Assembly (NCBI GenBank): GCA_963170055.1
Contig: CAUJGJ010000087.1
Coordinates: 392,501 to 456,500, forward strand
From: Halisarca cf. caerulea
Taxonomy: Eukaryota; Porifera; Demospongiae; Chondrillida; Halisarcidae
Reading direction: 5' to 3'
Length of the DNA stretch: 64,000 nucleotides
The notes under the pieces are model-generated. The model was given only the letters and a program-made list of their open reading frames with translations. It was not told where the DNA came from and ran no database searches. Positions 10,833-40,195 of this stretch are shown here, one piece after another. A program made the translations under genes and the position numbers. Each line of letters begins with the position of its first letter. The first letter of the stretch is position 1.

Positions 10833-10942
<110 letters not shown>

Positions 10943-20184: not shown

Positions 20185-20244
<60 letters not shown>
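20185..20244. repeat. (TA)n microsatellite
   Basis: TA tract forming the left boundary of the inverted endonuclease segment. Confidence 0.95.
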
Positions 20245-20247
<3 letters not shown>

Positions 20248-21338
20248 GTAGGTGTCTAATTTGGGCATTGAACCATTTAGGTTGATGGCTTTTGCTAATG
20301 GAGATGTGAGGTACGGTAGAGTTGCATACCATTAACATGAGATCCCTCAAGTTGTTCCACATTGTATTAATGTTGGCATCAGGGGAGGTTGTGATACTAC
20401 CGATGTGAGCAGAAATGAACTCATAAACTTTAACTGGATCAGCTTTCGAGAAGAGTGGGATTTTGGTGGATGATGTGGGCTTGTGAGAGGTATGATGAGG
20501 GGCAGTGGTATATTTGAAAGAGATCAGGTAATGGTCGGATTTAGTACAAGTGGTCGTTGAGTTATCGACGAGGATGTTTGTAATGTCATTGGGGTTGTTG
20601 GATAAGACTATGTCAAGGGTGTTTCCATGGATGTGAGTAGGTTCGGATATGACTTGAATTAGGTTTAGGTTGAACGATAATTCACAGAATAGTGTTCCAA
20701 GGGTGGTAGTGGCAGTCATTGTAAGCCAGTTGATGTCAGGCATGTTAATGTCACCAAGGATGACTATGTTACGACCCGATGGCAGGTTTCCCAAGATGTG
20801 GAAGAGTTCATGTACATGATGATGATCAATGTTAGGCGGTAAATAAATCCCAGCAACAATGAGGTTATGATGAGGTACTTCGAAGGCGATGAGCTCTAAA
20901 GGTGAGTGGAATTCAAAAATATTTACCAAGATGTGGTTAGAGACGGCAATGAGCACTCCGCCTCCGTGGGATTGTCTATCTTTACGTAAGATTGTGTACC
21001 CTGTGGGTAGAATTTCATTGTCATAAGTGGTACTCTGGAGCCATGTTTCAGAAATGCAGAATATATCAAATGGGTGGCTGTAGATCAACGATTGAAAATA
21101 AGGCAATTTGTTATTAATACTGCGTGCATTCCAGGAACCGAAGGAGAGTCAGTAGATTTCCTGGCAACTGGTTGCTGGGGTCTGCTTGGTGGAATTGGTA
21201 GTCGATGAAGTCTGTTGGGCAGTCGATGGGTTGGGGTTGATGGGGAGGCATGGCTTGTAGGTTATCAGTAGGATTTACAGTTGGGCGAATTTCAGCAGTG
21301 GGAGATGTTTGTGAAAGAGCTGGATTTGGGTTTGACAC
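20245..21338 (-). pseudogene. CR1/L2-like retrotransposon: endonuclease part, inverted
   Basis: On the minus strand, 21338-21140 encodes a proline-rich leader. After one frame slip the frame continues SFGSWNARSINNK, PFDIFCISETWL, SHGGGVLIAVSN, IVILGDINMPDINW and ends with KSDHYLISF. These are the ordered motifs of an apurinic-type endonuclease (NARS..NK, ETWL, GGG, GD.N.P, SDH), the N-terminal domain of CR1/L2-clade ORF2. About 290 residues are well preserved. The RT domain that should follow is absent and the frame runs into (TA)n. The 5' end at 21338 faces, head to head, the C-terminal piece of the same kind of element at 21360. Confidence 0.85.
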
Positions 21339-22315: not shown

Positions 22316-22349
22316 GTATAACCATAGACTTGTAAGTCTATGGTATAAC
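22316..22349. mobile_element. CATAGA micro-palindrome 1 (20 bp) with 7-bp direct repeats
   Basis: Insert 22323-22342 is CATAGACTT-GT-AAGTCTATG. It is flanked on each side by GTATAAC (22316-22322 and 22343-22349), an exact 7-bp direct repeat. End sequence and flank length match three other loci in the window. Confidence 0.7.
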
Positions 22350-22539
22350 GATAGTCACTAGAATAGCTTGTTTCTTCTCAGCTGAGAGGTAAATAGTAAT
22401 ATTATGATAGGCAGTTGTTCGTACGAACTCGAGCACACTCAGGAGGCGACTGAGAGTCCCAATTGATTACTGGGGTCCTGTTATGAGGTCCCCATCCATA
22501 GTTATACACACATTGCATGCATGACATGTTGTGTATGGT
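22350..22539. other. short spacer before satellite
   Basis: Contains satellite-like GGGGTCCTGTTATGAGGTCC pieces (about 22473-22493). It looks like the degenerate edge of the 60-bp array. Confidence 0.4.
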
Positions 22540-23522
22540 TTCTATATTGTGGAGTCCCCATAGCTATACAGATTATTATTACTATGTGTGGCCATAGTAT
22601 GGTGTGGCGTAATGTTGAGGCCTATTACAACCATAATATGTTTGGGCCTTATACTGAGTATGGAGTGTGGACATGGGCTCCATGCAAGGCGTGCTATGTT
22701 GAGGGCTTAGCCTGAGTATAGTGTGGGGTCCCCATATTTACGTGTCTCACACACAGCATGCTATGCTGGGGCCCTATAGTGTGGGGTCCCCATATCTACA
22801 TGTGTCTCACACACAGCATGCTATGCTGGGGCCCTGTTGTGTGGGGTTCCCATATCTACACGTGTCTCACACACAGCATGCTATGCTGGGTCCCCATAGT
22901 GTGGGGTCCCCATATCTACACGTGTCTCACACACAGCATGCTATGCTGGGTCCCCATATCTACATGTGTCTCACACACAGCATGCTATGCTGGGTCCCCA
23001 TAGTGTGAGGTCCCCATATCTACACGTGTCTCACACACAGCATGCTATGCTGGGTCCCCATAGTGTGGGGTCCCCATATCTACACGTGTCTCACACACAG
23101 CATGCTATGCTGGGTCCCCGTAGTGTGGGGTCCCCATATCTACACGTGTCTCACACACAGCATGCTATGCTGGGTCCCCATAGTGTGGGGTCCCCATATC
23201 TACACGTGTCTCACACACAGCATGCTATGCTGGGTCCCCATAGTGTGGGGTCCCCATATCTACACGTGTCTCACACACAGCATGCTATGCTGGGTCCCCG
23301 TAGTGTGAGGTCCCCATATCTACACGTGTCTCACACACAGCATGCTATGCTGGGTCCCCATAGTGTGGGGTCCCCATATCTACATACATGTGTCTCAGCC
23401 ACAGAATGCTATGCTGGGTCCCTATAGTGTGGGGTCCCCATATCTACATGGGCTCCATGCACAGCATGCTATGTTGAGGGCTTAGACTGAGTATAGTGTG
23501 TGGGGTCCCCATATCTACATGT

Positions 23523-23567
23523 GTCTCGCCATAGATACTAGAAACCTTCTAGTATCTATGGTCTCAC
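23523..23567. mobile_element. CATAGA micro-palindrome 2 (31 bp) inside satellite
   Basis: Insert 23530-23560 has 14-bp perfect arms starting CATAGATACTAGAA and a 3-base loop. It is flanked by GTCTCGC (23523-23529) and GTCTCAC (23561-23567), a 7-bp repeat with one mismatch. Neighbouring satellite units carry the uninterrupted site TGTCTCACACAC, so the insertion is directly visible. Confidence 0.75.
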
Positions 23568-23915
23568 ACACAGCATGCTATGCTGGGGCCCTTTTGTGTG
23601 GGGTCCCTATATATCTACACGGGTCTCACACACAGCATACTGTGTTGGGGCCTTATATTCAGTATAGTGTGTGTGTGTGTATGGGTCTCATGCACAGCAT
23701 GCTATGTTGGGGGCTTAGACTGAGTATAGTGTGGGGCCCCCATATCTACGTACACGGGTCTCACACACATCATGCTATGCTGGGGCCCTGTTGTGTGGGG
23801 TCCCCATATCTACATGGGGTCCATGCCCAGCATGCTATGTTGGGGCCTTATATTCAGTATAGTGTGGGGTCCCCATATCTACATGGGTCTCACGAACAGC
23901 ATACTATGTTGGGGG

Positions 23916-23967
23916 CTTAGACCATAGATATTCTATACTACGTAGTATAGAATATCTATGCTTAGAC
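23916..23967. mobile_element. CATAGA micro-palindrome 3 (38 bp, perfect) inside satellite
   Basis: Insert 23923-23960 is a perfect 38-bp palindrome (arm CATAGATATTCTATACTAC, no loop). The exact 7-bp direct repeat CTTAGAC lies at 23916-23922 and 23961-23967. The unit at about 23707-23725 shows the same GGGGGCTTAGACTGAG sequence with a single CTTAGAC, that is, the empty site. Confidence 0.8.
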
Positions 23968-24145
23968 TGAGTATAGTATGGGGTTCCCATATCTACATGC
24001 TGTCACATGGGTCTTACGTACATGTTAACCTGGAACTCGATAATGTGGGGTCCCCATATCTACAGTACATGGGTTTCACACACAGTATGCTATGCTGGGG
24101 CCTATACTGAGTATAGTGTGGGGTCCCCACATCTACATGCCATCA

Positions 24146-24429
24146 GTGAAAGTTAGTATGTACTTATTGTCACATGGCATTAACTTTCTGGAAGTATACG
24201 TAGAGTAATAATATCCTTTCCTAGGTGATTCCATCATGATGGTATAGCTGACCATATCATTATGACACTGGAACTACTTTGTCTGATGGACTCGAGGCAT
24301 TGGTGGATACTACATGCAGTATACATGTGCAGCAGTTGGGTTATAGTGTCAGCCATCATACTGTAGAGCATAAGTTCTTTTCAAAATCTATCATATCATG
24401 GACTATGAAGGTACGGACATGTGTGTGTT
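24146..24429. other. no recognised gene
   Basis: Short spacer between satellite and GT repeat. The phrase CATATCATTATGACAC recurs at about 26078, close to a second satellite-like patch. Confidence 0.4.
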
Positions 24430-24560
24430 TCACTGTGTGTGTGTGTGTGTGTGTGTGCATGCGTGCATGCGTGTGTGTGTGTGTGTATGTGTGTGTGTGT
24501 GTGTGTATGTGTGTGTGTGTGTGTGTGTGTGCGTGTGTGTGTGTGTTTGTTTGTGCATGT
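24430..24560. repeat. (GT)n microsatellite
   Basis: Interrupted GT repeat with GCATGCGTGC and GTATGT variants. It produces (CV)n false frames. Confidence 0.95.
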
Positions 24561-24924
24561 ATGTATAATATTATATTATAGCCAAACTAAATTCTTTCAG
24601 TACAGGAGGTAAAATATACTATTAATTTTGCTCCTGTAATCAGGAATTTTGGTTGGCCATGCCAAATTTAAAGCATAAGTTGCATACATGAAGGTCCAAC
24701 TGAAGGTAGGATCACCAATTATTACTACGGCTATAATAATACTTACCTATATACAGAATTTCACTGTGTGTGGATATCCACATAATGTGTGTGCACGTAA
24801 CTGATATGCAGTTTTGTATAGCATGCACAGAAATCCAATTTATGTAGTAGAAAGTTAGTATCAGGAAATACATAACATTACTGTATAGAGTCTTAGTCTT
24901 TGTTTGTGGTGTGAATTCTTATTG

Positions 24925-25165
24925 TGTTAGAATACAAATTTATATTCCGTATTTGCATGCTGGAATACAAATTTGTGTTTTGAAGTTATTACATCCACAT
25001 TATAGAATACAAATTAGTACTCTGAAGTGCAATTATGAATTTGTGCTCTGAAGTACAATAGTGTTGGATTACAAATTTGTGCTCTGATTTGCAATGCTGG
25101 ATAACAAATTTGTGTTCTGCATCGGAATACAAAATTTGTCCTTTTGAAATGCAATGGTTGGAGTA
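24925..25165. repeat. imperfect minisatellite, about 40-bp unit
   Basis: At least five copies of a unit like GAATACAAATTTGTGTTCTG followed by AARTGCAAT with variable spacing. The minus-strand open frame here shows the matching repeat EHKFVIQH and is unlikely to be a gene. Confidence 0.75.
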
Positions 25166-25684
25166 ATAATTTGTGTAACAGTTGTCATCCATTGAAACAA
25201 TCTTCTTCCTTCTGTAGGAGCAAGTATAGCCGGAGTAGCCCAAGAAGTTGAATGTCCTGCATTGTATACTCTCCAGAGTGGACACTACATGTGATATTGG
25301 AAAAGATGTAGAACATTTAGTCAGTGTATTGTAACAGTACTAATTCTTAACATTGTTTGCTCAATTGTCAAATAAATGTTCAGTGTTAATTATCGGATAG
25401 TATAATCAGTACAGTACTGTGATCGACACAAAATTATCAAATCAAAGTATGCAAACAGTAAGTCTAAGAGATCAATGTACAAATTTAAGAAATTAGACAT
25501 CGTTTCAAGAAGCTGCTTAATAACATATATATCGTGCATGCAATATAACTGCAAAAATATGTTGTAATACCATAGACTATAATATTATTACAATGTCATT
25601 TTATTAATATTTAATTTATATAAATTCATACATACCATGCAATATAGTTTGGAGATCAAGTTGATTTGTACTTTCTGCCACCAC
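25166..25684. other. no recognised gene
   Basis: AT-rich spacer without identifiable coding or structural features. Confidence 0.5.
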
Positions 25685-25984
25685 CTACATAGTAGACTGA
25701 GATGTTTTTCCTCTACTGTAATTGTAAAAAGAACTTGTCTCGCTTCCTTGCATGAGAGCATGTTTTTCTGACTTCGTGGAGACAGGTGCGTATTTGCGTT
25801 TAGTCACATAATAGAAAAAATTGCTGAACGTAAATCTGCCGTCGGATAATCCTTCTTTCTGCTGCCCATGTGCCCATTCGCTCGCCCATTTCGCATTCTT
25901 ACGTATTGTCGCGCGCTTCATCCTTTCTTCGAGTCGTAGATACAGTTTTGTTAAATATCGCTTAAAATCTAAATCTTGTGGCAC
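25685..25984 (-). CDS. uncharacterised 99-codon open frame
   Basis: It starts at an ATG (25984) and reads MPQDLDFKRYLTKLYLRLEE, RMKRATIRKNAKWASEWAHG, then a serine/tyrosine-rich tail to a stop. The N-terminal half looks like a charged helical domain and its composition is more gene-like than the surrounding AT-rich DNA. No family is recognised. It could be a single-exon gene, an exon, or part of a DNA transposon. The satellite-like GGGGCCCC patch lies immediately upstream. Confidence 0.3.
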   Translation of the reverse strand: MPQDLDFKRYLTKLYLRLEERMKRATIRKNAKWASEWAHGQQKEGLSDGRFTFSNFFYYVTKRKYAPVSTKSEKHALMQGSETSSFYNYSRGKTSQSTM

Positions 25985-25999
25985 ATCGTTGTTCAGTGG

Positions 26000-26085
26000 G
26001 GCCCCATATTAATTATGGGGTCCCCATATCTACGTAGATTTGGGGACGGGGGTCCTCAAATCTATACGGGGGGCCCCATATCATT
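26000..26085. repeat. satellite-like GGGGTCCCCATATCTAC patch
   Basis: Contains TATGGGGTCCCCATATCTAC, the core of the 60-bp satellite at 22.5-24.1 kb, plus mirror-related GGGGGGCCCCATATCATT. This suggests the satellite grew from, or spread with, a dispersed short element. Confidence 0.6.
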
Positions 26086-26239
26086 ATGACACCGGTAATC
26101 CGAAAATGGCTGATCCGGCGAATGTATGGGATTTGCCTATAAATTTTTTCTCGCTTTAGAAGTCCAGATGTGGCTTTAAAACCTACAAAAGGCACTTAAT
26201 ACCAAGCCTCCCTACGTGGAAGCTAAGAGGTGATATATA

Positions 26240-27160
26240 ATATATATACCTAATGATAAGCCCTAACCTATACCCATATAATAATAATATGGTCTATATA
26301 GCCTGATAAGTCTATTATTATCTTATAAGCAGAAGGAGGTGCTGCAAGCAGAACCCCTTCCTTGGTCTTAAGGGGGTGGAGGAAGACCAGAGGGGATAAA
26401 GTGTCTCCCTGGAAAATGCCTTGAGAGATGGAAAATGTATTGGTTCTCCAGTTACGGCCCGGGTAGATACAGAGGCAGTGAGTTGCGAATAAGTGCTCTT
26501 GATGTAGGCACATATTTCAGTAGGCATCTTAATGAATTCCAACATTAGGAAGATCAGATTGTGGCTGACAGAACCAAATGCATTCTTTAGATCGATAAGG
26601 GTCATAACCAGTGAGCGGTGGTGTTCCTTTGCATTGTTGAGGATGGTTTGCAGAGCAAGGATCGATGTGCTCCATAATGCCATTGGATCCAGTGAGGAAG
26701 CCCTTTTGGACAGTGGTGTCAATAATGCCGTTGACAGAGAAATAATTTTCAAGGCATTTAGCAAGGATCTTGTGGTAGAGCTTAGCTACTGTAGTGGTCT
26801 TGGCAATGGGTCTAAAATTCTCGGGCTTAGAGGGGTCACCTCCTTTAGGGAGGAGAATGATGTCTGCAGAGCACCAGTTGGTAGGGGCCTCATGAGAGTG
26901 CAAAAGGATTTTGGTGTAAAGAGTTGCCAAGAAGAGATGAGTGGAGGGTAGCTTTTTCAGGTGAAAGTAGGAGATGCCGTCAGGACCTGGGGAGGAGGAG
27001 GATGAGCATTTCTTTAGGCAGGATTTGACAAGGCTGGGTCTTATAGGTGACATATCAAATTCTTCTGAGATGTCCACATACATGTGGGCTTGAACCCAAT
27101 CAGGGATGGTCTTGTAAGTGAATTTGGCGTTGTCAGCAAAGGTAGTCCTGAAGTGAATAT
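26240..27160 (-). pseudogene. non-LTR retrotransposon RT fragment (R2/NeSL-like style)
   Basis: On the minus strand the order is IPDWVQAHMYVDISEEFDMS, SSPGPDGISYFHLKKLPS, ADIILLPKGGDPSKPENFRP, KLYHKILAKCLENYF, VQKGFLTGSNGIMEHI. After one frameshift it continues LVMTLIDLKNAFGSVSHNLI (motif A) and, in a third frame, SISQGIFQGDTLSPLVFL (motif B). The frames overlap near 26700 and 26450. RT identity is clear. The IIDTTVQKGFL..NGIMEH block points to the R2/NeSL-like side of non-LTR elements, but I hold that loosely. It ends about 75 bp before the start of transporter copy B and points away from it. Confidence 0.75.
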
Positions 27161-27234
27161 AATAATGTACATCACCTGGTTGACGTCACGATCACCATGG
27201 TGACGCTCTCTTTTTTAGCACATGGCTGGCATTG

Positions 27235-27759
27235 ATGCCGGAGTTTGATAATTTTTTGCTAGTCGCAAAGAAATCAGATCTCGATGGGATATCGAACGAC
27301 TATGAAAGTACGTGGGGAGAGCTAGGGGACGAAAGTAATGCTCAAAGTTACATTCGAAGAATATCCAGCTACTGTTACGTCTACTATGCTATTGTCGCAT
27401 CATTGGGAGCTGTTTCTTTCGGTTTCGCTGCTGTATTTTCCTCTCCCTTCCTGGAAGAGATGTCAAGGAGGGAGAATTTCACCTTGTGGATTGAAGGATT
27501 CGATAATTGCATCTACCAAAACCTGATTGGTCCGCTGACACCTATAGGAGCTGTTGTCGGTGGTTTGCTGGGATCGCTCGTTATTGCTCTTTTTGGACTA
27601 GTATTCTCCTTGATCGCTAGTGCAACGACGTTTATGTTGGGCTGGACCATGTTAGGTGTGTCGTGGTTTCTACCTTCTTCAAGTTGGTTCAGGGTGTTCA
27701 TCCTTCTTGGAAGAATTGTTACTGGATTAGCTACCGGATGGGTAGCAACCACCATACCC
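27235..27759 (+). CDS. SLC2-like sugar transporter, copy B, exon 1
   Basis: A 546-residue major facilitator of the SLC2 (GLUT) type is encoded by two exons: 27235-27759 (175 codons, donor GTGAGT) and 37003-38118. It should move a sugar or related polyol across a membrane; the substrate cannot be read from sequence. Exon 1 has a soluble N-terminus, TM1 (about residues 45-65), an extracellular loop with sequon-like NFTLW, and further segments up to GRIVTGLATG (159-168), the family's conserved motif before TM5. The ATG at 27235 is chosen because the upstream ATG at 27222 runs into a stop after eight codons. Copy A uses an equivalent of that upstream ATG, and a length change between the copies moved the frame. 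Copy A lies 17 kb upstream and is broken. The intron is 9.2 kb and full of transposons. Confidence 0.85.
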
Positions 27760-27785
27760 GTGAGTATCTATATATGTCGTGAGTA

Positions 27786-28489
27786 GTCTTGCGCAGCACA
27801 GACCACGCTTCCCCTTCCTTTTGTATTATGATGACGGCATTTTTTCGCGAAAGGTGGTCTGGTGAAGATCCAACACCAAAGATGCAAATCTCCAAAAGTT
27901 GGGGGCTCATGGGATTGACGAGTGAACTGAAAAGAGCAATGGCAGCATTATTCTAGATTCCTTATTAGGCTGTGAAAGAATGTGACAATTGTATTGGGTT
28001 TAGAGATGTTCAGAAACAAACACAAAGAAGTTTTTATGTTGATAGCGGCTGCCAGGAAAAAAACACTTTCCTGTCCTTGCCCAATAGCTAAAATAAATCC
28101 ATCATTTCACCATGCTACCAAAAGTTAGAGCTAACACATACGATAATGCTCCCTTACTTGCCACAAAGACTGTTGAGCATAATTGGTATAGTGCAGCGAA
28201 AATGATGGATTTACCCTTAAGCTAGCCATTAGGCAAGGATAGAAAATTTTCCTGTCACTGGCAGATATCATTATAGAAACCTCTTCCTGCTTGTCTCTGC
28301 GCTTCTTCAAACCAAATACAGTTGAATCACCTGCTAGTGGGTAACTTCATATAAATGACCCCCAACTTTTGGGGTTCATGCACACAACTTTTGTATTGGA
28401 TCTTCACCAGACCATCTTTCCGTGACAAAATGATGTGATCATATTATTCCAAAGAAGGAGTGGAAAGTGTGGTCTGGGGTACACAAGAC
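27786..28489. mobile_element. TA-flanked non-autonomous DNA element, long TIRs
   Basis: The left 125 bp and the reverse complement of the right 140 bp align: GTCTTGCGCAGCACAGACCA against GTCTTGTGTACCCCAGACCA, later GGTCTGGTGAAGATCCAA in both, and CCAAAAGTTGGGGG in both. The element is flanked by TA (27784-27785, 28490-28491). No transposase is inside, so it is a MITE-like passenger, starting 26 bp after the end of exon 1 of copy B. Its terminal GTCTTGCG is shared with smaller elements at 42735 and 58109. Confidence 0.75.
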
Positions 28490-28733
28490 TAACCCATGAA
28501 CGCAGGTATAACATGTGCCTGTTCCTTAAACAGAGGGGTATTGTGTGGTTCGCAGAGGAATTTTATTGAATAATATCACATTTTTTATTGTGCATGCATT
28601 AGTCACCTCTGGTTGGTGACGTCATCATATCGTGTGACCGCCTTGTGACAAACGGCAAGAGATACTTTTTTTGCAATGAGTAAAATTCTTTCGAAAACCC
28701 AGTCATCTAAATGGTTGTGCATGTAGAAGAGTC

Positions 28734-28886
28734 ATGTCGCAGGGGTTTGATCACGATAGGTTAAACTACATTTGCACCGCTGTCAATTTTGATAGCATGC
28801 TCCATTCCCGACATGTGCAAAAGTTTTTGGTTTTACTCTGTGCCAAAAACAACATTTTGATGGACACTCAAGACCGAAAGAGAAAG
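28734..28886 (+). CDS. possible first exon of a gene nested in the intron
   Basis: ATG at 28734 opens 51 codons reading MSQGFDHDRLNYICTAVNFD, SMLHSRHVQKFLVLLCAKNN and ILMDTQDRKRK, followed exactly in phase 0 by a consensus donor GTAAGT (28887). A second exon-like piece at 33662 starts in phase 0 after a good acceptor (CATTTCAG). Together they would give a basic 90-residue protein. Composition and splice signals look real, but no family is recognised and an old transposon gene is equally possible. Confidence 0.35.
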
Positions 28887-28889
28887 GTA

Positions 28890-29215
28890 AGTTCGACAGC
28901 GGTGAAAATTTAGAATTTGATGTTAGAATGTTCTTGACAAAGTATGGCTGTTCTAAACGATGGTTTACATGACATGGTTCTGCACTAAAGTTATTCTTAA
29001 GGTCCGAATCTGTGGTCGTTTTTTTCGGCTTTGCGAAGTATTGACAACAAAGTTAACTGTTGTAGCATTAAATAGTCATATTGATGTTTGTATGTACTTT
29101 TTGTATTCCATAAGTACACTGAACGCAAGAAAAGTGGGGGTTGATTTCAGCCGACCTTAGGGCAGCCATTTTGCATGGTAACACTGGACATGTTGTACAT
29201 GTCACACCTGCGAAT
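28890..29215. repeat. diverged dispersed repeat (pair with 31790-32105)
   Basis: Shared order of blocks with 31790-32105: GGTGAAAAYTTAGA, ATGTTAGAA, GGTCCGAATC, GCTTTRCGAAG, TGATYTCAGC.GAC, ACATGTCACACCTG. The copies are old and unassigned. One starts right after the donor at 28887. Confidence 0.55.
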
Positions 29216-29239
29216 GCTGTGTCCTGCTCAGTGTGCTCT

Positions 29240-29345
29240 CATAGTAGAATGAAAAGTGTTAGTGTTTGATGACTCAGAAGTAATATAAGTTGATCTAGAC
29301 ACTGCTAAAACCATTGCAATGGTCCCGATCTGCTTAGTCTTCATT
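29240..29345. repeat. intron segment conserved with copy A
   Basis: AAGTGTTAGTGTTTGATGAC, CCATTGCAATGGTCC and CTGCTTAGTCTTCAT match the intron of copy A at about 10675-10780. It is non-coding and shows that the duplication included the intron. Confidence 0.75.
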
Positions 29346-29576
29346 AAACATTATGCGTATTTCATTAAGTCTTATTACTTTTCAAAATCTCTATACAGTA
29401 ATGAATCAGCTATGCACTGGTCATGCAGTCTTTTGACTAACTGGACAGTTATTCCATTTTATTGGCAATTAATGCATGCTTCATTGCATTTTACGGAAAA
29501 TGCTACAGCTCAAATTTGGAATAGCCAAACTTTAATCAGCATATTTTGCTTTCAAAGTCCCTAAACACTATATTAT

Positions 29577-29593
29577 ATGTACGTATATATGTA

Positions 29594-29656
<63 letters not shown>
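29577..29656. repeat. (TA)n microsatellite
   Basis: TA tract with GTA interruptions at its left end. Confidence 0.95.
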
Positions 29657-29659
<3 letters not shown>

Positions 29660-29998
29660 AATAACTATTATACACATATACAGAACATACAAGAGAATTA
29701 AAAGCCTAAAAGTCCAAGCATGCAAGATTATGAATAATTATTGTTACAAGTACCTAGAATAGCTGTGCAGTTAAATCTCTATACTATATACGCATGTAGG
29801 ACATGTCCAGATTTGTTATGATAGTGCTCCTCAGTTTGCATAGGGGTGAAACGTTTATATTTCGGCGCCTTTAAGTTATTAGTCACGCTTTATTCTCGCG
29901 ATTCGGGTGGATATTCGGGCGTATACGGAACCAAATCCCCGTTAAATGACGTTTTCTGTTGTCACCGTTGCTCTTTCACATGCTGGCATGTGACGTAT

Positions 29999-30678
29999 AC
30001 GGTACTTCCCATTGTAAGTTTAACGATTTGTTATGAACAAATGAATGAGCGAACGAATAATGAAGGGCGAATGAATGCTGAATGAATGATTGAACGAACG
30101 CTTGAACCCATGACGTCATAATGTGACGTTTTGAAAAATTACTCAACTTCTATAAAGACGTCATCACTTCGACTAGGTGAGCGATTCTTCGGATTCTTCC
30201 ACAAGTTGACGAAATGAGTTTATTTTCTTTGAAATGAACGAAACGAAATTTCATCATCCTTAGCTATCTCGCTGTCGATGAAGTCCAGGATAGCACGCGT
30301 CTTGGTGGGCTTTCTACCAGTTACCGCTTCTGGTAATGGTGCCCCGTATCTTTAAATTTCTTCTGGAAATGTGATATCCCAGGCTTCGTAGCGTGGTGGT
30401 CTTCTGACGCTAGAAGATTCGCGATCTGAGACTAAGACTTGCCTATTCTGATTAGATAGAGAATTCGTTGTTTCATGTAGTTAGAATAAACCATAACGTT
30501 CGTCTGTATACACTCCCTATATTTCAACATCTGCATGCGCATTATGACGCTTTCGCTGTCACGTGATCGATCAGAATGAACGAAGGTTGAACGAAGGCTT
30601 GAATAGACCCTGATCGAACACTGAATGAAGGTGTAATGAATGAACAGTCGTCATTAAAATTACTATGGGAAGTACCGT
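29999..30678. mobile_element. non-autonomous TIR element inserted in E
   Basis: Ends ACGGTACTTCCCATTGTAAG and, from the other side, ACGGTACTTCCCATAGTAAT form terminal inverted repeats of about 24 bp. Just inside both ends lie many copies of GAATGAACGAACG-like motifs. No transposase frame. It interrupts element E copy 1, so it is younger. Confidence 0.75.
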
Positions 30679-30761
30679 TAGGGTTTGAAATTTTAGTTTT
30701 CGGCTGGACACTACGCGAGGAAACAAGCTATAGACAGTTTTTAAGTGCCAGCATTGAGCTA

Positions 30762-31757
30762 CGGTACCAAAAGTATAAAAGTTTACGTACCGTTTAAAAA
30801 GTACGGCTGCCGCGTTGGTCATAAACGGTACGGTTTATGGCGTACAAACGGTTGAAACCGTATCGTCCTACCGTCCTGTGGTTATTGTATTATGTAAACA
30901 CATTGTTACTATAATAACAGTCGAAAGGTGATAATTATATTTATAGACATCAAATTACGTAGGTAAAAATGGATGTCGACGTACGTAGTTCACGATTCTC
31001 AGCGACGAGAAATATCCAGGGCGGCAAACAGCTTCGGTTTATAGCGTGGCTTCCTCCCTCTCTTATAGCAGCAAAAGCGGCGGTGGGTTTCTATTTGAAC
31101 AGATGTTTCATCCGTAAATACAACATTGTCGAATGAAAGGTTGTTCTCGTTATTCTTTGCCCAATCCAAACGCTTGACCTTGTTCACTGCCTGAATCATT
31201 TGGCAGTACTTCGTTCCGCCGTACGTCCATCCCAATTCCCTATGCCATCGGAGAATTGAAGGCTGTGAAAGACGGTGACCTTCACTTTCTAGTTTACTTT
31301 GAAGCTCTTTGGCCGTGGTTTCATCATTGTTCCTCATTTCTTGTTCTATTAGTGCCAAAGCGTCGCCGTTCACCTTGGAAGATGTTCCTGAACCATACTG
31401 GCGAAGAAGACTCCCTGTCCTCTGAAAGCACTTTAAGAACTTGCATACACCAACTCTGCTAACAACCAAACCTTCTTTAGCAAGCAACTTTTGTATAGTA
31501 GGGGCTTTCTTTCCCAAGCGCCGAAAAAGCAGAATTCTTTCTTTCGTGTAGCTGCTAAACACCATAATTCGAGGTAAGCATGTGTGGTAAAAGATCGTTT
31601 CAAATGATTGTTTACACAATTCAGAACGTCCTTTTTAACCGCGAATCGTACTTGGAAAAAATGGTACGTTTCAAAATAGACGCTACGCTTGTAAAAGACG
31701 GTTCCAGTATCGCCGTTTAAACAGTACTGTACGTAAACTTTTATACTTTTGGTACCG
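30762..31757 (-). mobile_element. Tc1/mariner element, internally deleted
   Basis: 29-bp perfect terminal inverted repeats start CGGTACCAAAAGTATAAAAG at both ends, with a TA duplication outside (30760-30761, 31758-31759). The whole element is 996 bp. That is too short for a full transposase, and the coding part stops after the first catalytic aspartate region. Confidence 0.9.
30999..31565 (-). pseudogene. Tc1/mariner transposase, C-terminally truncated
   Basis: From ATG at 31565 the frame reads MVFSSYTKERILLFRRLGKK, a helix-turn-helix region with VVSRVGVCKFLKCFQRTGSL, a second DNA-binding region with LSQPSILRWHRELGWT, and NVVFTDETSVQIETH, which holds the first catalytic D of the DD(E/D) triad. 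It stops at about 188 residues, whereas Tc1-type transposases are usually about 340. The second and third acidic residues are missing, and the remaining 237 bp to the TIR has no room for them. The element could move only with help from an intact relative. Confidence 0.85.
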
Positions 31758-31789
31758 TATTTGTAGTTTGCAACTTTTTCATGTGTGTG

Positions 31790-32105
31790 CAAGGTGAAAA
31801 CTTAGATATTCATGTTAGAAGTCTTCGGACTCCGTATGACTCCCTTAAACGAGCATTTATATGACCGCCTTTTCCACTGAAACGTCTTTATAGGTCCGAA
31901 TCAACTATAGTTTTTCTAGCTTTACGAAGACGAGATATACAATTATACCAAGAATTGTAACATTTAATAGTTGCAATGATGTCTGATATCCTTCTCAGGA
32001 CTCGTAACGTAATAGAACAGAAGAAAAAAGGGAGTGATCTCAGCAGACTTTTAGGGTGCCAGTTTGTTCACACCTCACATGTGCACATGTCACACCTGTG
32101 ATGAG
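31790..32105. repeat. diverged dispersed repeat (pair with 28890-29215)
   Basis: Second copy of the unassigned intronic repeat described at 28890-29215. Confidence 0.55.
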
Positions 32106-32165
32106 GGGTAATAGATTGAGCGTGATGAGTCTATCTTTGTACTTTGATGTGTAATCTTTTTGCAG
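32103..32165 (-). pseudogene. tiny CR1/L2-like ORF2 fragment
   Basis: The minus strand reads KDYTSKYKDRLITLNLLPL, nearly identical to the DYSSKYKDRLIKLNLLPI segment of the element at 21360-21878. It is the only recognisable part. Confidence 0.65.
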
Positions 32166-32384
32166 GTATAGGTTATGTGCAAAGTCAGCGAGATAGGGGG
32201 TGTTTTGTGGTTTTAAAGGAATGTTATAAAAAAGTGTCATATTTGCTAATTTAGCGTGGGTTGGTCATGTGCGTACTGCGTGAACTCAGAGTGGATAATT
32301 CGTCTTCTTGTTTTGTTCTTTTTAAATCTTCTAAAAGCTTAAAATCGCCGGGAACAAATAAGAAAATCGAAAGCTAAAGCAGGA

Positions 32385-32745
32385 AGAAGTTAGCTACCAT
32401 TTGTAGGAACCCTTTGAAGTAGAATGTATTGCAACATCGTGAGTGAAGTCACCTGACTTTGGTGTGACTTAGGTGGAAGATGACAAAACCTCGAGGATCA
32501 ATTTTCTTTGTAAAAGGGGGTCTACTCAGCGGTGCTTTGTAGATCTGAAACTTTACAAGGTTGTTGACAAAGGGTAATACTAAGTTTTCACCATATGGCT
32601 TATTGATACATTGTTCCATTCGTTAAATGTGCACGTCTTGAAAACTATAAAAACGTGCACATAACAGGAACAAAGGCAAATTTCAAGAAGCCATACGGGG
32701 AAAGTTAGTTACCTTTCGTAGGAACCCTTCAAAGTAGAAATCGTA
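32385..32745. repeat. direct repeat pair inside the intron
   Basis: GTTAGCTACCATTTGTAGGA (about 32390) and GTTAGTTACCTTTCGTAGGA (about 32704), each followed by ACCCTTYRAAGTAGAA, lie about 310 bp apart. They could be repeat copies or mutually similar exon starts (each TTTNGTAG is acceptor-like). No coding call is justified. Confidence 0.5.
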
Positions 32746-33320
32746 ACACAGTGCTGCTGTTAAGTAGACCGACTTTTGGAAAGAAGTTGTTTTCATATAC
32801 TTTTGAATCTGCCAATTTATTCCCTGAATAAGATCTTTGAGAACGTTTTGAGTGCAGAAATGTACAATTATAATGTAAAAGTATTGTACAGTACCTTCGT
32901 TTTGTTCACACAATGAAATAGGAAAGAAAAAATGGGGTGTATTTATGATAAAGTTTATCGACAGCCATTTTGTTTTATGTGCAAAATACACATAACTCAC
33001 CTGAGTTAGAATAAATTGATAGCAAGTCGCTGTACATTCTCCAAAGTTATGATATCTTTAATCAAATACCGTCTCCGAAGTTGTGAACAATAATGACATC
33101 TTAGAGTGGACTAGTGACAGATATAGTGATTTGCGTGTTAGCAGTGAATAGGTGGATCAATGGAGAGTTTGTTTAATAAAGTTTAAAGATCGATAAGCAG
33201 CATATTAAGCATGTTAAGACACAATTTTGTTTATTAGGAGAGGCAAGCGCTTGGAAAACAAGAGTGGAACTATTGTTGTGCAATCTCCAACCGAGACAGT
33301 GAATTTTTTCATCAACAAAA

Positions 33321-33338
33321 ATCCCCCCCCCCCCCCCC
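33321..33338. repeat. poly-C run
   Basis: Homopolymer C tract, likely length-variable. Confidence 0.9.
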
Positions 33339-33414
33339 TCCCCAATATAGCTAGCTGCAATTTTTTTATACCATGAAAACTTCCTGACGTACGGTGCATA
33401 TATATATATTTATG

Positions 33415-33561
33415 TATTAGTTATATAACCCGCTTTGCTGGGTACATGGGGAATATACTAAGTGTTAGGTGTTGATACACGAGGGCGAAGCCCGAGTGTT
33501 AATCAACACCTAAAACTTAGTATATTCCCATATACCCAGCAAAAGCGGGGTATAACTAATA
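33415..33561. mobile_element. 147-bp fold-back element
   Basis: Nearly complete palindrome. TATTAGTTATATAACCCGCT and AGCGGGGTATAACTAATA pair at the ends, GGGAATATACTAAGTGTTAG pairs with CTAAAACTTAGTATATTCCC, and GAGGGCGAAGCCCGAG forms the tip. Small loops and mismatches show some age. No target duplication is evident. The related AGTGGGATACATA at 34177-34189 mirrors TATGTATCCCACT just right of this element. Confidence 0.75.
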
Positions 33562-33661
33562 TGTATCCCACTTGAAAGAAGGATTTTACTCACAGAGAAG
33601 GTACTTCGGTGTTTAATTGAAGCCAAACGACGATTATTAGCTTTTCAACTTTTCATTTCAG

Positions 33662-33781
33662 CGACGAACCTTGCGTCTACGCCGTATACTGGATACGTAT
33701 GCACTGCAAATGCCAGGAGAATGCTTTAACTTAATAGAAGAGGAGACAGCTTCAAGGAACTACGAAAATGCTGTACCGTGA
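33662..33781 (+). CDS. possible last exon of the nested intron gene
   Basis: After acceptor TTTTCATTTCAG, 39 codons in phase 0 read RRTLRLRRILDTYALQMPGE followed by CFNLIEEETASRNYENAVP, ending in TGA. Joined to 28734-28886 the junction would read DRKRK-RRTLR. It is coding-like but unassigned. Confidence 0.33.
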   Translation, partial: RRTLRLRRILDTYALQMPGECFNLIEEETASRNYENAVP

Positions 33782-34186
33782 AAACAAACCTTACTAGTCT
33801 AGGAGCACATGTTCCTTTCTAAAAGTTCGCTTCAGTCTTTATCCGTGACAGTCATTGTCGAAGGGTTAGAAAAATTGTTGATTGCTCAGTTGGGAGGACT
33901 AATGCTCTCCTAAAAGACTGCCAAAGCCACAATGGGGTCTGAAACGATACGTGTAGACAGAAACGTTTGTAAAAAAAGGACAACACGAACTTCTTTGTAG
34001 GCTTAGTATACACTGTACGTACAGCAGGTGTGCTGCTGTTGCATCATCCTGTTGACAAGGCAGTTACCAATTATTGTCACTTAAAAAACAGGGTATATGA
34101 ATTGGGGTCATTGATATACCCCGGTATATTGCGAATATACCCAAGGCGGTCCCTTAGAAAATAATGGAAACCGCCCACACAGTGGG

Positions 34187-34318
<132 letters not shown>

Positions 34319-34733
34319 AATATATTGCAGGGCTACAGCCAAAGCAATGCACCAGCAAGTATAGGGCTGTGACCTACAAATTTGTAGCCGCAAACTGTTT
34401 CTGTCTTCTGAAGGCAAGTGTTTTTCTCCTTTTAGTGACAATCCTGTTTCCAACAAATATTACACTATTCTAAACATTTGTTTCAAAGTAGGACTTTAGG
34501 TTGCTAGTATCATCAGAAATTTCACTTATTGCCAAATCGCTATTAATTTTGAGGAAGACGCTGTTTATAGTGATTTGTCATGATGACACAATTTACTGTG
34601 GGCCAACATGGCTAAAAACATTGATATCCATGACTGTAATTATTACTGAGGAAATATTTAAATGCATGACACCACAGATCCAACCCAAGCCGTACCAAAA
34701 CAAAAATCCTCGACCACTGATATATACAAGTTG

Positions 34734-35457
34734 CGCATGTGGGACATGTCCGTGCTAATTCGGAGGTGTGAAAATGTCAGTCTTTTTTACAGCTTTTGTT
34801 CACTTGTAGTTGATGCAGAGAGTCAAACAAGGGATCAAGATGTAAGCAGACATATAGACGTTCGTACGTTTACCTTCTTGGAAGGCTTGCTTTTATCGCG
34901 AAGAATCTACTGAGGTTTTCCTAACCCCTACTGAAAAGCGAAACGCTCTGGGTGCTACCTGGTGGAACGCTTCCAAGACTATTTTTTAACATAAATCGCT
35001 ATAACGAAACATTTACTAACTTTTCCATGCGGGTGAGTTGACCGCTCCTTTCCAAAGCCGAGATCTGATCCATTGGGCCTCAAAAGCCAACATTCAAGCT
35101 CCTGTAACTTGGGACAGGAACAAAATCTCTCACCCGCATGGAAAAGTTGTATATTTCCGATGGCTCGAAGTTGACACCAAGAAACTGTCTCCAGCTTGTT
35201 CCCTCACGTAGCACCCAACCGAAAACTATGATTCAGAAGAAACATCGAGTTAGGTCGCAAGCAAGCATGTGACAGAGCAACCGTGACGACAGAAAACGTC
35301 ACTAAACGCGGATTCGCCATTCGTATACGCCCGAATATTAGTTCGAATCACGAGATAACTGCATGACTAATAACTTGTAAGCGCCCAAAGATTACAATTT
35401 ATCGCTATGCAAGCTGGGAAGCGCTATCATAACAGACCTGGACATGTCCCACATGCG
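34734..35457. mobile_element. element E copy 2 (724 bp), with internal hairpin arms
   Basis: Both ends start CGCATGTGGGACATGTCC read inward. Inside, ACTTTTCCATGCGGGTGAG (35019-35037) and its exact complement (35129-35147) form 19-bp arms, and GGGTGCTAC/GTAGCACCC lie outside those. No transposase is present. Its right 300 bp defines the split copy at 29.8-31.8 kb. No clear target duplication was found. Confidence 0.7.
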
Positions 35458-35548
35458 TGATATAATATGTGATGGGATCTGAGAAAAGGGGTCACTTCGC
35501 ATATATTTTCAAATTGCAATTTTTGACATCACTCAAGAGATACCTTAA

Positions 35549-36152
35549 GGTTACAAATGTTAGCGGGTACTAATTTTAGCATTTTTCGGTGGCCAGTATT
35601 TAGCGGGTACTTATTTTAGCGATTTGATAGCATTATTGTACCAAATCTGTAGTTAGCGATCTTGGAAATGTTATCTCCTTTTCCAATTCTTATCTAAATC
35701 ACCATGTCTAATCTTTATATAGAGTACTATACTGTTGAAATCGAAAGGTGCAGAAACGAATCACTGAGATCACAAAACTTAAGCTTGTAGATACGGCTAG
35801 AAGAATCGATCTTGTCGGCGTACAGCTTGAAGAAATCGTTATCGCTTTTAGGTGAATTTAAATCGAAAATGATTAAATCAAATATATGTTACAATCCAAT
35901 GATTCTTTTAAACTTTACATGTATTTGGTTCACTAGTTGCAGTCAATTTCGCTGACTTTGCGTAGATTTTACTTTTGTTCGGAGCCGCCATTTTCTCCCG
36001 TGTAGTGCACAGTACATCCATACTTAATTGTACAATACAAAATTAGTGGGTACATTCATTGGCGGGTACAATTGTTAGCGGGCACTTAAGTTAGCGAATT
36101 TGAGGCTTCTCGCTAATTTCGCTAAAGTTAGTACCCGCTAACATTTGTAGCC
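35549..36152. mobile_element. TTAA-flanked non-autonomous element
   Basis: Flanked by TTAA (35545-35548, 36153-36156). TIRs start GGYTACAAATGTTAGCGGGT. TAGCGGGTAC-like motifs repeat just inside both ends. TTAA duplications are typical of piggyBac and Kolobok elements; with no transposase present I cannot choose between them. Confidence 0.7.
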
Positions 36153-36723
36153 TTAAGGTACGTCATTGTAGATCATTATGGCGCCAACAGCGTTCAGATA
36201 TCTTACTTTGTTCAGGAGATATGCTCCGTTTACTAGCCTATACTAGCAATCAGTTAATTCGCGAACGAGTATTTTTGATGACGTCACATACCCGTAATAT
36301 GGCTGCCACAGATTTCATATTTTTTGCTGTCGTTTGGCAGTGATTCATTATACACCTGTCAACTAGGAGTCAGCAGTTAGTTTTTTGTCAAAAGGGACTA
36401 TTGCGATAAAATGCGCTTCCTTTGAGTACCCTTTTCATTGCGAACGGCAGCCTCCTCACTTCATCCGGATAACAAAATGGCGTACTTCCGTGAGATGAAA
36501 CAAGAGCCGGAACTCCAGATTGGCACATTGTAGGCAAGTTTTGCTTTCAGAGGATATTCTACTAAATTTATCCAAAAAAAAAAAAAAAAATCGAACTTTG
36601 GTCACTTAGAAGGTATTACGTATGTCCACGTAACCGTATTGTATAGGTAGCGCGAAGTAACCCCTTTTCTCAGATCCTGTCACATATTGTTTCTGTTAAT
36701 TGCACCCAAACATTGCAAAATTA

Positions 36724-36919
36724 TTGAAAGTTCCAAATAGACCACTTTATCTAGCTGCTTATGAGTAGCAGCCTAAGATTGAATTATTTTAACTTGCATA
36801 CAGTGTGTAATTTTCCTTTCCTTTGAAAGTTCCAAATAGACCACTTTATCTAGCTGCTTATGAGTAGCAGCCTAAGATTGAATTATTTTAACTTGCATAC
36901 AGTGTGTAATTTTCCTTTC
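36724..36919. repeat. recent tandem duplication (99-bp period)
   Basis: Two essentially identical copies beginning TTGAAAGTTCCAAATAGACC lie back to back, ending about 83 bp before the acceptor of transporter exon 2. Their identity indicates a very recent event or an assembly artefact. Confidence 0.9.
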
Positions 36920-37002
36920 GTCTGCATGTAAATTAATAATATTTATAATAATACTATTATTATATGCATTGGTGATCACTATAATATACCAATACGCTGC
37001 AG

Positions 37003-38118
37003 GTGTATGTTGCTGAAATAGCTCCCACAGAGGATGTTCGAGGAAGACTTGGAGTTCTTTTCCGACTTGGAATTGGATTGGGAGTTTTTGCATGTTTTGT
37101 GATTGGAAACTACATCAGCTACTGGCAGTTAGCTTTTCTTTTCCTTGGATATGCAGTAATCCAAGGTTTGTTGCCCTTTTTCATCAAAGAATCACCTTCA
37201 AGAAAACGTAACGTGATGGACAATTGTAAAGCACTCTGTTGCAAAGGCAAACATGATCATCATGAAGTATTAGCTAAAAATAAATACATCAACCAAATAT
37301 TTCTACTGTTATGTTTTATAACTATCAGTTTATTTAGCTTGCAACAATTGACTGGATTAAATGCTATTTCTTTCTATGCTGGTCCCATATTCCTTTCAGC
37401 TGGTGGTGAAAACTGGTCCATTTCTCCTGGATTAGTTGCAACAATAGCTATTGGTATTACACAGATAGTTTCTCCTATTGTTTCATTCTTTATCATTAAC
37501 AAAATGAGCCGAACACTGTTCTTCTTTTTTGGAGCACTAGGCATGATGGTTGGAAACATTGGTATTGCATCTTATTTTGCTGTTGTGAACGGTGCTTTAC
37601 CTGTTGCAGATGCAGCTGTGAATAGAACAAATGAGAGCAATAATCTATGTTTCTTTGGAATCCCGACTCCTGCCACTTCTACCCTGGGTCAGCAATACAG
37701 CCCTTTGGCCATATTGAGCATTGCTCTGTTTGTTGTATCTTTTGCTATCGGATGGGGTCCACCACTGTATGTGTATGCTGCTGAACTGTTTCCCAATGAT
37801 ACCAGAGGAGTAGGTTTAGGATTGGGCATTGCTTCCAACTGGCTAAGTGTGGCTGTTATAACTTTCTTATTTCCTTTATCAGCACAGTACATTGGTCCAT
37901 CCATGACTTTCTTTACACTTGCTTGCATTGATCTGATAGCAGCAGTATTTGTTGTCTTCGTAGCCCCTGAAACACAAAAGAAGGAAATGGGATTTCATGC
38001 TACTTGCAAGTTTAGCTTCAAACGAAATGTGAAGGAATTCAGGCAGAATCTGCAAAGATGCCTATTATGTCGCACCTGCAGACGTCGCAGCCGAGGAATG
38101 TGTTTCACATCTAATTGA
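37003..38118 (+). CDS. SLC2-like sugar transporter, copy B, exon 2
   Basis: 371 codons after acceptor CGCTGCAG, in phase 0 with exon 1. Landmarks (protein numbering): VYVAEIAPTEDVRGRLG (176-192), the family's loop 4 motif; KESPSRK (237-243), the PESPR-type motif after TM6; QQLTGLNAISFY (289-300), the TM7 QLS-like motif; GWGPPLYVYAAELFPNDTRG (425-444) around TM10; and PETQKKE (497-503) after TM12. Two sequons (NRT, NES) lie in the TM9-TM10 loop region. The C-terminal tail is unusually rich in Cys and Arg (RCLLCRTCRRRSRGMC), which could mean lipid attachment or metal binding. The family call is firm; the subfamily is not. Confidence 0.9.
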   Translation: MYVAEIAPTEDVRGRLGVLFRLGIGLGVFACFVIGNYISYWQLAFLFLGYAVIQGLLPFFIKESPSRKRNVMDNCKALCCKGKHDHHEVLAKNKYINQIFLLLCFITISLFSLQQLTGLNAISFYAGPIFLSAGGENWSISPGLVATIAIGITQIVSPIVSFFIINKMSRTLFFFFGALGMMVGNIGIASYFAVVNGALPVADAAVNRTNESNNLCFFGIPTPATSTLGQQYSPLAILSIALFVVSFAIGWGPPLYVYAAELFPNDTRGVGLGLGIASNWLSVAVITFLFPLSAQYIGPSMTFFTLACIDLIAAVFVVFVAPETQKKEMGFHATCKFSFKRNVKEFRQNLQRCLLCRTCRRRSRGMCFTSN

Positions 38119-38400
38119 ATGTTACACAATAGAACAGTTATTGTATAATGCAACTCTGTTTACATAATATGTAAGTAAATGCACATGTATAATGCATAAT
38201 ATACGTATATTATGTAATATTATAATTATCTATATGTGTATATGGATATATATATATATATATATATCCAGATGATAATATTGTTATGGCTCAATTATGG
38301 AATCTGATGTAGAACGGCATACTATGATTGATACGGAAATACATGGCCACCATACATTAGCACAAATTAGTTTTTATTATACCCAAAAGCTAATGATGTA
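38119..38400. other. 3' flank conserved with copy A
   Basis: TTGAATGTTACACAATAGAA, TATAATGCAACTCT and, further on, the ACATGGCCRCYATAC segment match 13120-13400. It probably holds the 3' UTR and marks the right side of the duplicated segment. No strong AATAAA signal was seen at a fitting distance. Confidence 0.6.
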
Positions 38401-39384
38401 GGGTGTCCATAGGTTTCATATATATAATATTATTAAGACCTTTCGGTGCAGTTTCACCTACTAGCTACTGCATGGACAAAGTATAGTTCAAGAGCTTTGT
38501 AAACCCATGTCTTCAAAGAATCTGAAAAGTTACCAAGATGCTGGTCAACAACACCAGTACCATTGTTAGATTATTTTTCTCACCTTATTTCGATTGAATT
38601 AAGCAACGTATGGATCACCAGCAAAAGTCCACAGGTCATTTCTTGTCATTGAGTTCCAGTTGTGAGGTTTTGAAACAGTACCTACATTTCTTTAGCAAGG
38701 AAAAAAATCAATTTATGTAGAAAATCATATATAATTTGTCAAATCACCCATTCGGGGCAAACTTTTTTAACACTATATGAGTTCCATGAACTTTTTTTAG
38801 AAATAACAAGTAATATTATAATAATAAGTAAGAAATTCAAAGTGCATGTCATGTAAGGCCATGTCTATAAAAGAATTGATTAAGGAAGACTATATTACAT
38901 GAAGAAGTCAACATACGAGAGTCAATGGAATGGCACTCTTCCCTCCACCGCACTCAGCTATATATCTTGTCAATGTGTTATGTTAAATATTATTATATCT
39001 ATGAATGCAACAATGTCCAATAGGGCTATAGTCCTGCAATAAATTAAAGCCACTCAACAGTGATAAATCTTGTGTTATAATTATATAATCTGCCAAACAA
39101 CCATACCACCCTAATTTCTTTGTCACTACATGCATGCATGCCTGCAGATATAGAAAAAAGTGTACTGTTGACAATATAGGTCAATTGACCTCTGTCATCT
39201 TGGGACAAGAAAAACCATAATACTAGCTTGCCCGTACAGTGAGCCCATGCACGTTTGGCTGACCATGTCTGTTCCCCATATAAAAGGTGTCAGACAAACC
39301 AGATCGATGGTGGATAAACCACAGTAGATTCTGCACAACTTGATGACAGGCAGGTTCCAAGGACAAGAGAAAGAAGTGACTATC
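38401..39384. other. no recognised gene
   Basis: AT-rich sequence without recognisable features. The minus-strand open frame at 39223-39564 belongs to the repeat region and is not conserved in its sister copy. Confidence 0.5.
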
Positions 39385-40195
39385 TTTGTTGTACGTTAAT
39401 GGAGAGCTGCGATTTACCAGCCATATTATTAAGTATTGCATGAATGTTAATATATAATACTTCATGAATACCAAGAAGCTATTGATTGACATTATATAAT
39501 TGCATGGATCAAAGAAATCTTTGAGTGCTGGGTCACCACTGTGAGCTGATTGTGGTTGCATCAAAGAATTTTAATGATTAACATTCCATGAACAAGCTAG
39601 ATATGCTGCAAACAGAGGCCTTCAAGTAGTCTGGAAGTAATAAATCTAGAAAGACATTGATCCCAGCAGCTACATTGAACAGGGGCCACATGAGCATGCC
39701 CCATCACAGTATGAAGGAAAAAGAACTTCAAGGGGAAAATGTCTTTGCGAATAAGATCTCCACATCCATGACATTTCCCTATCTAGCATCAAAATTAAAC
39801 TTAGTGTGGAGCAACCTCACACCATGCAACCATCCCAGTCTGGAGAGCATAAATTGTATAGGCTCAAATTAACTCCAGCCTACGAACAAGGTTGGACACA
39901 GCAAAACCTCCTCTGTGAAAAGATGAACAGAAAAGACAGAGAAGATAGGACTAACCCAAGTGACACACCATGTCTGCAAGGGGTCCAGGTATAAAGCGTA
40001 GGTACTGTACGTGAGTTATTGTGCTGTTATAGCATAGACTCTCTAACACCAGTGTTAAAGAGTCTATGGTTATATTTAATTTAACTGCTACAGTTTAAGT
40101 TGTAATCTTTAATTATAGGAGGTTTTCTTATTTGTCCATGCTCTCCATTCTTATTGATTACTGCAATGGTATAACCTTCATGTAGATTTTTCACA
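39385..40195. repeat. dispersed repeat R, copy 2
   Basis: Aligned copy of 3900-4570. Relative to copy 1 it has gained extra sequence between GGTACTGTACGTGAG and the final GGAGGTTTTCTTA block. That extra piece contains micro-palindrome 4. Confidence 0.75.
40026..40075. mobile_element. CATAGA micro-palindrome 4 (36 bp)
   Basis: Insert 40033-40068 has 17-bp arms (CATAGACTCTCTAACAC; one mismatch) and a 2-base loop. It is flanked by GTTATAG (40026-40032) and GTTATAT (40069-40075), a 7-bp repeat with one mismatch. The sister repeat copy at 4.4 kb has no such hairpin. Confidence 0.7.

Follow-up and report, generated by a model that had tools for sequence, protein, structure and literature searches.

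In Drosophila, the P transposase cleaves one strand 17 nt into the terminal repeat (PMC7776569), and most sites repaired after P excision retain both target duplications (PMC2895639). The repair products consist of two tails joined at AT/TA, at a longer microhomology, or bluntly, or they are one-armed or contain filler (PMC2895639). The Drosophila P element requires a minimum of 138 bp at one of its ends and of 216 bp at the other (PMC1562414). Two other members of the P superfamily, 1360 and Galileo, make 7-bp duplications, the former at GTTNAAC (PMC3276498) and the latter at GTANTAC (PMC4168063). Short palindromes with the ends CATAGA...TCTATG and 7-bp flanking repeats were examined in a 64-kb stretch of DNA from the sponge Halisarca cf. 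caerulea (referred to here as the window; C83:392501-456500, where C-numbers denote contigs) and in the one assembly to which it belongs, which comprises 194,469,755 bases in 454 contigs. The palindromes are probably repair scars (excision footprints) left by a P-superfamily DNA transposon, rather than elements that jump themselves.

Four CATAGA...TCTATG palindromes lie in the window where the sequence-only reading had placed them, each between 7-bp duplications that are exact in two cases and have one mismatch in the other two. A near-perfect palindrome of 20 bp (putative scar 1; 22323-22342) stands between copies of GTATAAC (22316-22322 and 22343-22349), and a perfect palindrome of 38 bp (putative scar 3; 23923-23960) stands between copies of CTTAGAC (23916-23922 and 23961-23967). 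The 31-bp palindrome (putative scar 2; 23530-23560) is bounded by GTCTCGC and GTCTCAC (23523-23529 and 23561-23567), and an imperfect palindrome of 36 bp (putative scar 4; 40033-40068) is bounded by GTTATAG and GTTATAT (40026-40032 and 40069-40075). Scar 2 sits in a diverged unit just beyond a called tandem array with a 60-bp unit (22717-23473), the source of uninterrupted copies of its target context. Both this scar and scar 3 are set in repetitive sequence. The context of scar 2, GTGTCTCACACACAGCATGC, occurs without interruption at 11 places in the window, and that of scar 3, GGGCTTAGACTGAGTATAG, is uninterrupted at 23478 and 23711. Judged from the flanks and these uninterrupted target copies, scars 2 and 3 are therefore real insertions with 7-bp duplications. 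The sequence-only reading did not include a 9-bp insert, CATAGTATG (22593-22601), that lies between exact copies of GTGTGGC (22586-22592 and 22602-22608). A fifth CATAGA...TCTATG match (9842-9867) lacks a 7-bp flank repeat, with 4 of 7 bases differing, and is either a decayed scar or a chance match. The pattern CATAGAN{0,30}TCTATG was matched five times in the window, versus a shuffle mean of 0.30 (0 of 100 shuffles reached 5), and four of its matches had 7-bp flank repeats with no more than a single mismatch, versus none in 200 simulated windows. Chance was rejected as the origin of the window palindromes, as the shuffles and simulated windows fell far below the observed counts, and assembly error is unlikely, given that the pattern recurs on many contigs and its duplications are independent.

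Genome-wide, CATAGAN{4,34}TCTATG (inserts of 16 to 46 bp) had 1984 matches versus 282 for the reversed control, an excess of approximately 1700, which bears out the earlier expectation of many copies above chance. Inserts of 47 to 77 bp were represented by 586 pairs versus 248 in the control. Flanks were compared at the 50 places listed of the 1984 matches, all on contigs C1 and C2. The numbers of these places with 0, 1, 2, 3, 4, 5, 6, and 7 mismatches between the 7-bp flanks were 14, 11, 6, 5, 6, 4, 2, and 2, respectively, such that 25 of 50 carried a duplication, 14 of them an exact one and 11 one with a single mismatch. The sequence-only reading had proposed that flank matches should peak at 7 bp, and they did so: of 57 close pairs (14 to 46 bp apart) in an initial set of loci, an exact 7-bp repeat was present in 16 and one with no more than a single mismatch in 29, and exact flank repeats of 4, 5, 6, or 8 to 11 bp were absent. 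Across 69 distinct inserts, a set that comprises all sequence read, including loci chosen for a 20-mer, 0 to 7 flank mismatches were found in 21, 17, 7, 5, 9, 4, 4, and 2 inserts, respectively. The constant length of the duplication points to one kind of enzyme, as had also been proposed from the window. A duplication of 7 or 8 bp is expected of a P-superfamily transposon, and 7 bp was found both at the scars and in a family of 1286-bp elements described below. Scars of this kind appear to number on the order of a thousand in the assembly.

The duplicated sequence follows a palindromic motif, roughly S-T-N-N-N-A-S. When the 21 exact duplications were counted in both orientations, T at position 2 and A at position 6 were present in 38 of 42 oriented counts, and the full S-T-N-N-N-A-S was present in 12 of the 21. 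The scars thus show the GT...AC-type palindromic target preference of the P superfamily.

The arms of the palindromes were regarded in the sequence-only reading as too varied to be copies of one sequence, a view that needs correction: many arms genome-wide are versions of a single sequence of approximately 22 nt, CATAGAYACTCTATACTACGTA, although further arm types exist. The first 20 bases of CATAGAYACTCTATACTACGTA occurred 107 times in the forward and 78 times in the reverse orientation genome-wide, versus 0 and 0 in the control. In 29 inserts of at least 30 bp, the two arms of one insert agreed at 7.45 of 9 positions, compared to 5.71 of 9 between inserts, a difference reached in 0 of 5000 shuffles. 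The joints between arms fell into discrete classes. A joint pattern, CTATACTACN{0,20}GTAGTATAG, was found at 82 places genome-wide versus 1 in the control. Among the 50 of these that were listed, the implied insert lengths, calculated on the assumption that each arm includes its outer 10 bases, were 38 bp (23 places), 41 bp (1), 42 bp (7), 43 bp (5), 44 bp (12), and 45 bp (1), with one simple triplet repeat; no listed place had an implied length of 39 or 40 bp. Scar 3 of the window, which appears in this search as C83:416433, belongs to the genome-wide 38-bp class. Modeling of two identical 22-nt tails ending in CTACGTA, with an overlap of at least 2 bases and at most 3 bases trimmed, yielded only inserts of 42 bp (via TA) or 38 bp (via TACGTA or parts thereof), and tails joined whole yielded 44 bp. 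The 12 joints of the 44-bp class included five with GTAACC in either direction, three that were one base off (GTAGCC, GTACCC, and GTAACT), and four others (GGATCC twice, AGGTAT, and GGCTAT).

Insert lengths span 8 to 50 bp, and not all inserts have two arms. Twenty loci were read, namely, the first in the order of the CATAGAYACTCTATACTACGTA 20-mer list for which the partner arm had not previously been seen and the locus was unread, and their classes were assigned by the analyst. Two-armed inserts were found at 10 of these loci, six with an exact duplication and four with one mismatch, and one-armed inserts with an exact duplication were found at two, L059 (25 bp) and L060 (24 bp). The other eight were unclassed and comprised L049, L051, L052, L065, the masked L050, the part-masked L068, and the solitary ends L054 and L063. 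Inserts of 8 to 9 bp with exact duplications were found at L045 (CATAGATG) and L037 (CATACTATG), in addition to the 9-bp insert of the window, and a further CATAGATG insert was found at L029 in a locally repeated context. Maximal direct repeats enclosing inserts of 4 to 60 bp were also scanned in 264,769 unmasked bases, largely chosen around such sites; inserts beginning with CATA and ending with ATG accounted for 15 of 1347 inserts between 7-bp repeats, versus 2 of 3787 between 6-bp repeats and 0 of 471 between 8-bp repeats. Many inserts keep both ends, but those at L059 and L060 do not, and the 8- to 9-bp inserts hardly do. Such one-armed and very short inserts, which carry exact duplications, are hard to square with a mobile palindrome but are what larger elements would leave behind after inserting and departing. 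The proposal that the palindromes are themselves the inserting family is thus less well supported. A filler-like case is the 59-bp insert at L034:5240-5298, the flanks of which differ at 2 of 7 bases.

Related arrangements were seen at a few other loci. Inserts of 20 to 22 bp at L016 and L019 have a 7-bp duplication, CTCAAAC, that is located within an older CATAGATACTCAAAC arm, and they are apparently scars nested in scars. At C241:1845633-1846051, the 20-nt arm repeats head to tail on one strand, often with 29-bp spacing, and the array is apparently a minisatellite that arose from a single scar. A candidate scar in L020 was dropped, as it lies in a minisatellite.

A sequence of events that would produce these inserts begins with a P-superfamily transposon with CATAGA... 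ends, which would insert at approximately S-T-N-N-N-A-S and duplicate 7 bp. Its transposase would later excise the element by cutting with a long stagger, approximately 22 nt in from either inverted end, so that 22 nt of the element would stay behind as a tail on both sides, and host end joining would then rejoin the tails. Whereas insertion with a 7-bp duplication is seen from the flanks and the uninterrupted target copies, we infer that the cut lies at 22 nt, that end joining followed, and that the enzyme is of P type. A scar made in this way would be palindromic because the two tails are inverted copies. Tails joined whole would give 44 bp, tails joined via the terminal TA would give 42 bp, and tails joined via TACGTA would give 38 bp; trimmed tails would give shorter, one-armed, or 8- to 9-bp scars. 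As in excision footprints, both duplications are kept, and the insert corresponds to terminal-repeat tails joined with or without microhomology. The forms found include joints at TA (42 bp) or at a longer microhomology (38 bp), one-armed inserts (L060), very short inserts, and filler-like ones (for example, at L034).

Long elements with the same ends were found directly. An element of 1286 bp (L027:2049-3334) has CATAGA...TCTATG ends, inverted over 66 bp at 73%, and lies between exact copies of the 7-bp sequence GCCTAAT; the longest frame in this copy, the one examined for coding, is 109 amino acids. At least 15 near-full-length copies of this family occur genome-wide (40 of 89 candidates scored). 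Ten of the other 14 copies were read at their ends; all had CATAGA or CATGGA on the left and TCTATG on the right, nine with an exact 7-bp duplication and one with a single mismatch, which brings the family total to 11 of 11 duplicated. With its repeated copies, terminal repeats, target duplications, and lack of coding in the copy examined, the family is a non-autonomous element. Split long copies were rejected as autonomous versions, as they look like interrupted copies, the aligned parts of which overlap slightly in three. The 23-nt end of the main arm family was found at 64 places (complete list), among which are two inward-facing pairs, at C404:74037-77052 (3016 bp) and C369:1747985-1748901 (917 bp). 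Random placement gave a mean of 0.02 inward pairs within 4 kb, a limit that was set after the fact, and two or more pairs in 1 of 20,000 trials. The solitary end L054 was rejected as a parent end, since a search with 96 of its bases matched only itself. P-type transposase domains occur in the genome, with 4 matches to PF12017, 40 to PF21787, and 32 to PF21788. Contig C369 holds 24 of the 40 matches to PF21787 (P-transposase-like) and is possibly a transposon-rich region, although it is also a large contig (at least 13.6 Mb).

Several results weigh against excision scars as the explanation. No transposase was tied to the CATAGA ends: neither the 917-bp nor the 3016-bp candidate parent contained a match to PF12017, PF21787, or PF21788, and the CATAGA inverted pair was absent from two 1-kb stretches (placed by estimate) beside a P-type frame on C399. 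Longer elements with the same ends, which the sequence-only reading had suggested looking for, do occur, as the 1286-bp family shows. The 1286-bp family fits the target motif weakly: judged by eye, 7 of its 11 duplications have T at position 2 and 5 have A at position 6. A first scar pattern for this family had 0 matches but fits few of its right ends; a better pattern had 10 matches versus 0 in the control, of which three were read, none clearly of that family. The whole GTA|TAC joint (GTATAC) was absent from the 50 listed joint places, and a second end type ending in GGT, or shared descent, is therefore needed to explain the 44-bp joints. At 25 of the 50 places listed for the flank comparison there was no duplication at the threshold of one mismatch; some of these are chance matches, and some may be decayed. 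Much, including the constant ends and variable centers, would moreover be explained by a very small palindrome that is itself mobile and subsequently loses central bases.

This last possibility, in which a 44-bp element (CATAGACACTCTATACTACGTAACCGTAGTATAGAGTGTCTATG-like) and its relatives transpose with a helper transposase and the palindrome, being unstable, later loses parts of its center to yield the 38-bp, one-armed, and 8- to 9-bp forms, is unlikely. It accords with the recurrence of the 44-bp form, which accounts for 12 of the 50 joints listed (GTAACC/GGTTAC in 5), with the high copy number, and with the 7-bp duplications at 25 of 50 listed places. However, the transposase would have to pair and cut ends separated by only 8 to 44 bp, where Drosophila P needs at least 138 bp and 216 bp (PMC1562414); the deletions would need to halt at the duplication, which is where they would have stopped in L059 and L060; and the numerous versions of the arm, each with its left and right copies matching, would require many separate tiny families. 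That the palindromes of 38 to 44 bp are themselves mobile, moved by a P-type transposase that pairs ends only about 40 bp apart, is quite unlikely; if true, they would be the smallest transposing units known to us in a eukaryotic nucleus.

Two further explanations were weighed. Internal-deletion remnants, in which the element never fully left and aborted gap repair after excision joined short end stretches, would also have duplications and paired ends, and possible filler in a few inserts, such as the 59-bp insert at L034:5240-5298, is in keeping with them. A broad distribution of retained end lengths would be predicted, but classes at 38, 42, and 44 bp were found instead, and pairs of 47 to 77 bp numbered only 586 versus 248 in the control, compared to 1984 versus 282 for those of 16 to 46 bp; this explanation is highly improbable. 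The same scar process driven by a transposase of another 7-bp-duplicating superfamily, for example, Dada, is rather improbable. Dada makes 6- to 7-bp duplications. The CATAGA ends, to which no transposase was tied, leave room for such an enzyme, and in the parts available of a Dada paper, the phrase "7-bp target site duplication" occurs once (PMC8869645). Dada, as partly described, targets multicopy RNA genes, however, whereas the sites here are scattered over contigs; long-tail palindromic scars are known from P, and S-T-N-N-N-A-S resembles the targets of 1360 and Galileo.

If the palindromes are excision scars, one genome is a natural archive of end joining, with on the order of a thousand events that are individually tagged by a target duplication, from which repair pathways and transposon history could be read in an organism without genetics. 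A cut-and-paste transposon could then leave far more scars than surviving copies. Excision scarring further predicts a P-superfamily transposase with a staggered cut of 22 nt, not 17 nt, and it carries a caution for repeat annotation, in that short palindromic "MITEs" (miniature inverted-repeat transposable elements) may be scars.

Other features of the window were observed. A 49-bp palindrome at 42733-42781 (TAGTCTCGCGGGCCAGACCC...) lies between exact 9-bp direct repeats (CCAGACTAC) and resembles another kind of insertion, one that duplicates 9 bp, and a 38-bp near-palindrome at 8209-8246 (TTTGAAAACAATTGCC...GGCAATTGTTTTCAAA) is without a CATAGA end. Two neighboring sugar-transporter-like genes, similar by eye, occupy 10064-13120 and 27184-38118; a Pfam Sugar_tr match was obtained on 36985-38118, and 10064-10558 had no Pfam match. 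A perfect 99-bp tandem duplication lies at 36724-36919, within the second of these genes (27184-38118). Two stretches, 20165-21148 and 30999-31634, yielded remains of a non-long-terminal-repeat retrotransposon endonuclease (PF14529) and a weak, below-cutoff match to a Tc1-type transposase helix-turn-helix.

Comparison with other short palindromes and P-related elements places the scars closest to known P footprints. Repetitive hairpin elements of sponge mitochondria and bacterial REP/REPIN sequences are also short repeated palindromes (PMC2800124, PMC3733652, and PMC3116915), but they are mitochondrial and bacterial, respectively, unlike the palindromes here, and are likened to them by short description only. 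P-related MITEs of Anopheles (PMC1562414) are non-autonomous with P ends, as the 1286-bp family is here taken to be, but have 8-bp duplications and are not palindromes of 8 to 50 bp. Zebrafish Pdre2 (PMC10983969) is of P type, with a terminal repeat that begins with CATA, but differs in its 8-bp duplication and 13-bp repeat, CATACCTGTCAAC. Galileo and 1360 of Drosophila (PMC4168063 and PMC3276498) share the 7-bp duplication and palindromic targets, a likeness that extends to duplication and target only, the ends of neither having been compared with CATAGA; both are long elements, and the passages available on them describe no palindromic scars. Drosophila P footprints (PMC2895639) resemble the scars in that the duplications are kept and the same types of product arise from two terminal repeats. 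They differ in having an 8-bp duplication and 17-nt tails and in stemming from laboratory excision, where 7 bp, an apparent limit of 22 nt, and a natural genome-wide record are found here. No report of a genome-wide set of natural P footprints, or of a 22-nt tail, was found in the portions of the open-licence literature available. P excision footprints are already known from experiments; the natural genome-wide set and the 22-nt tail are apparently new.

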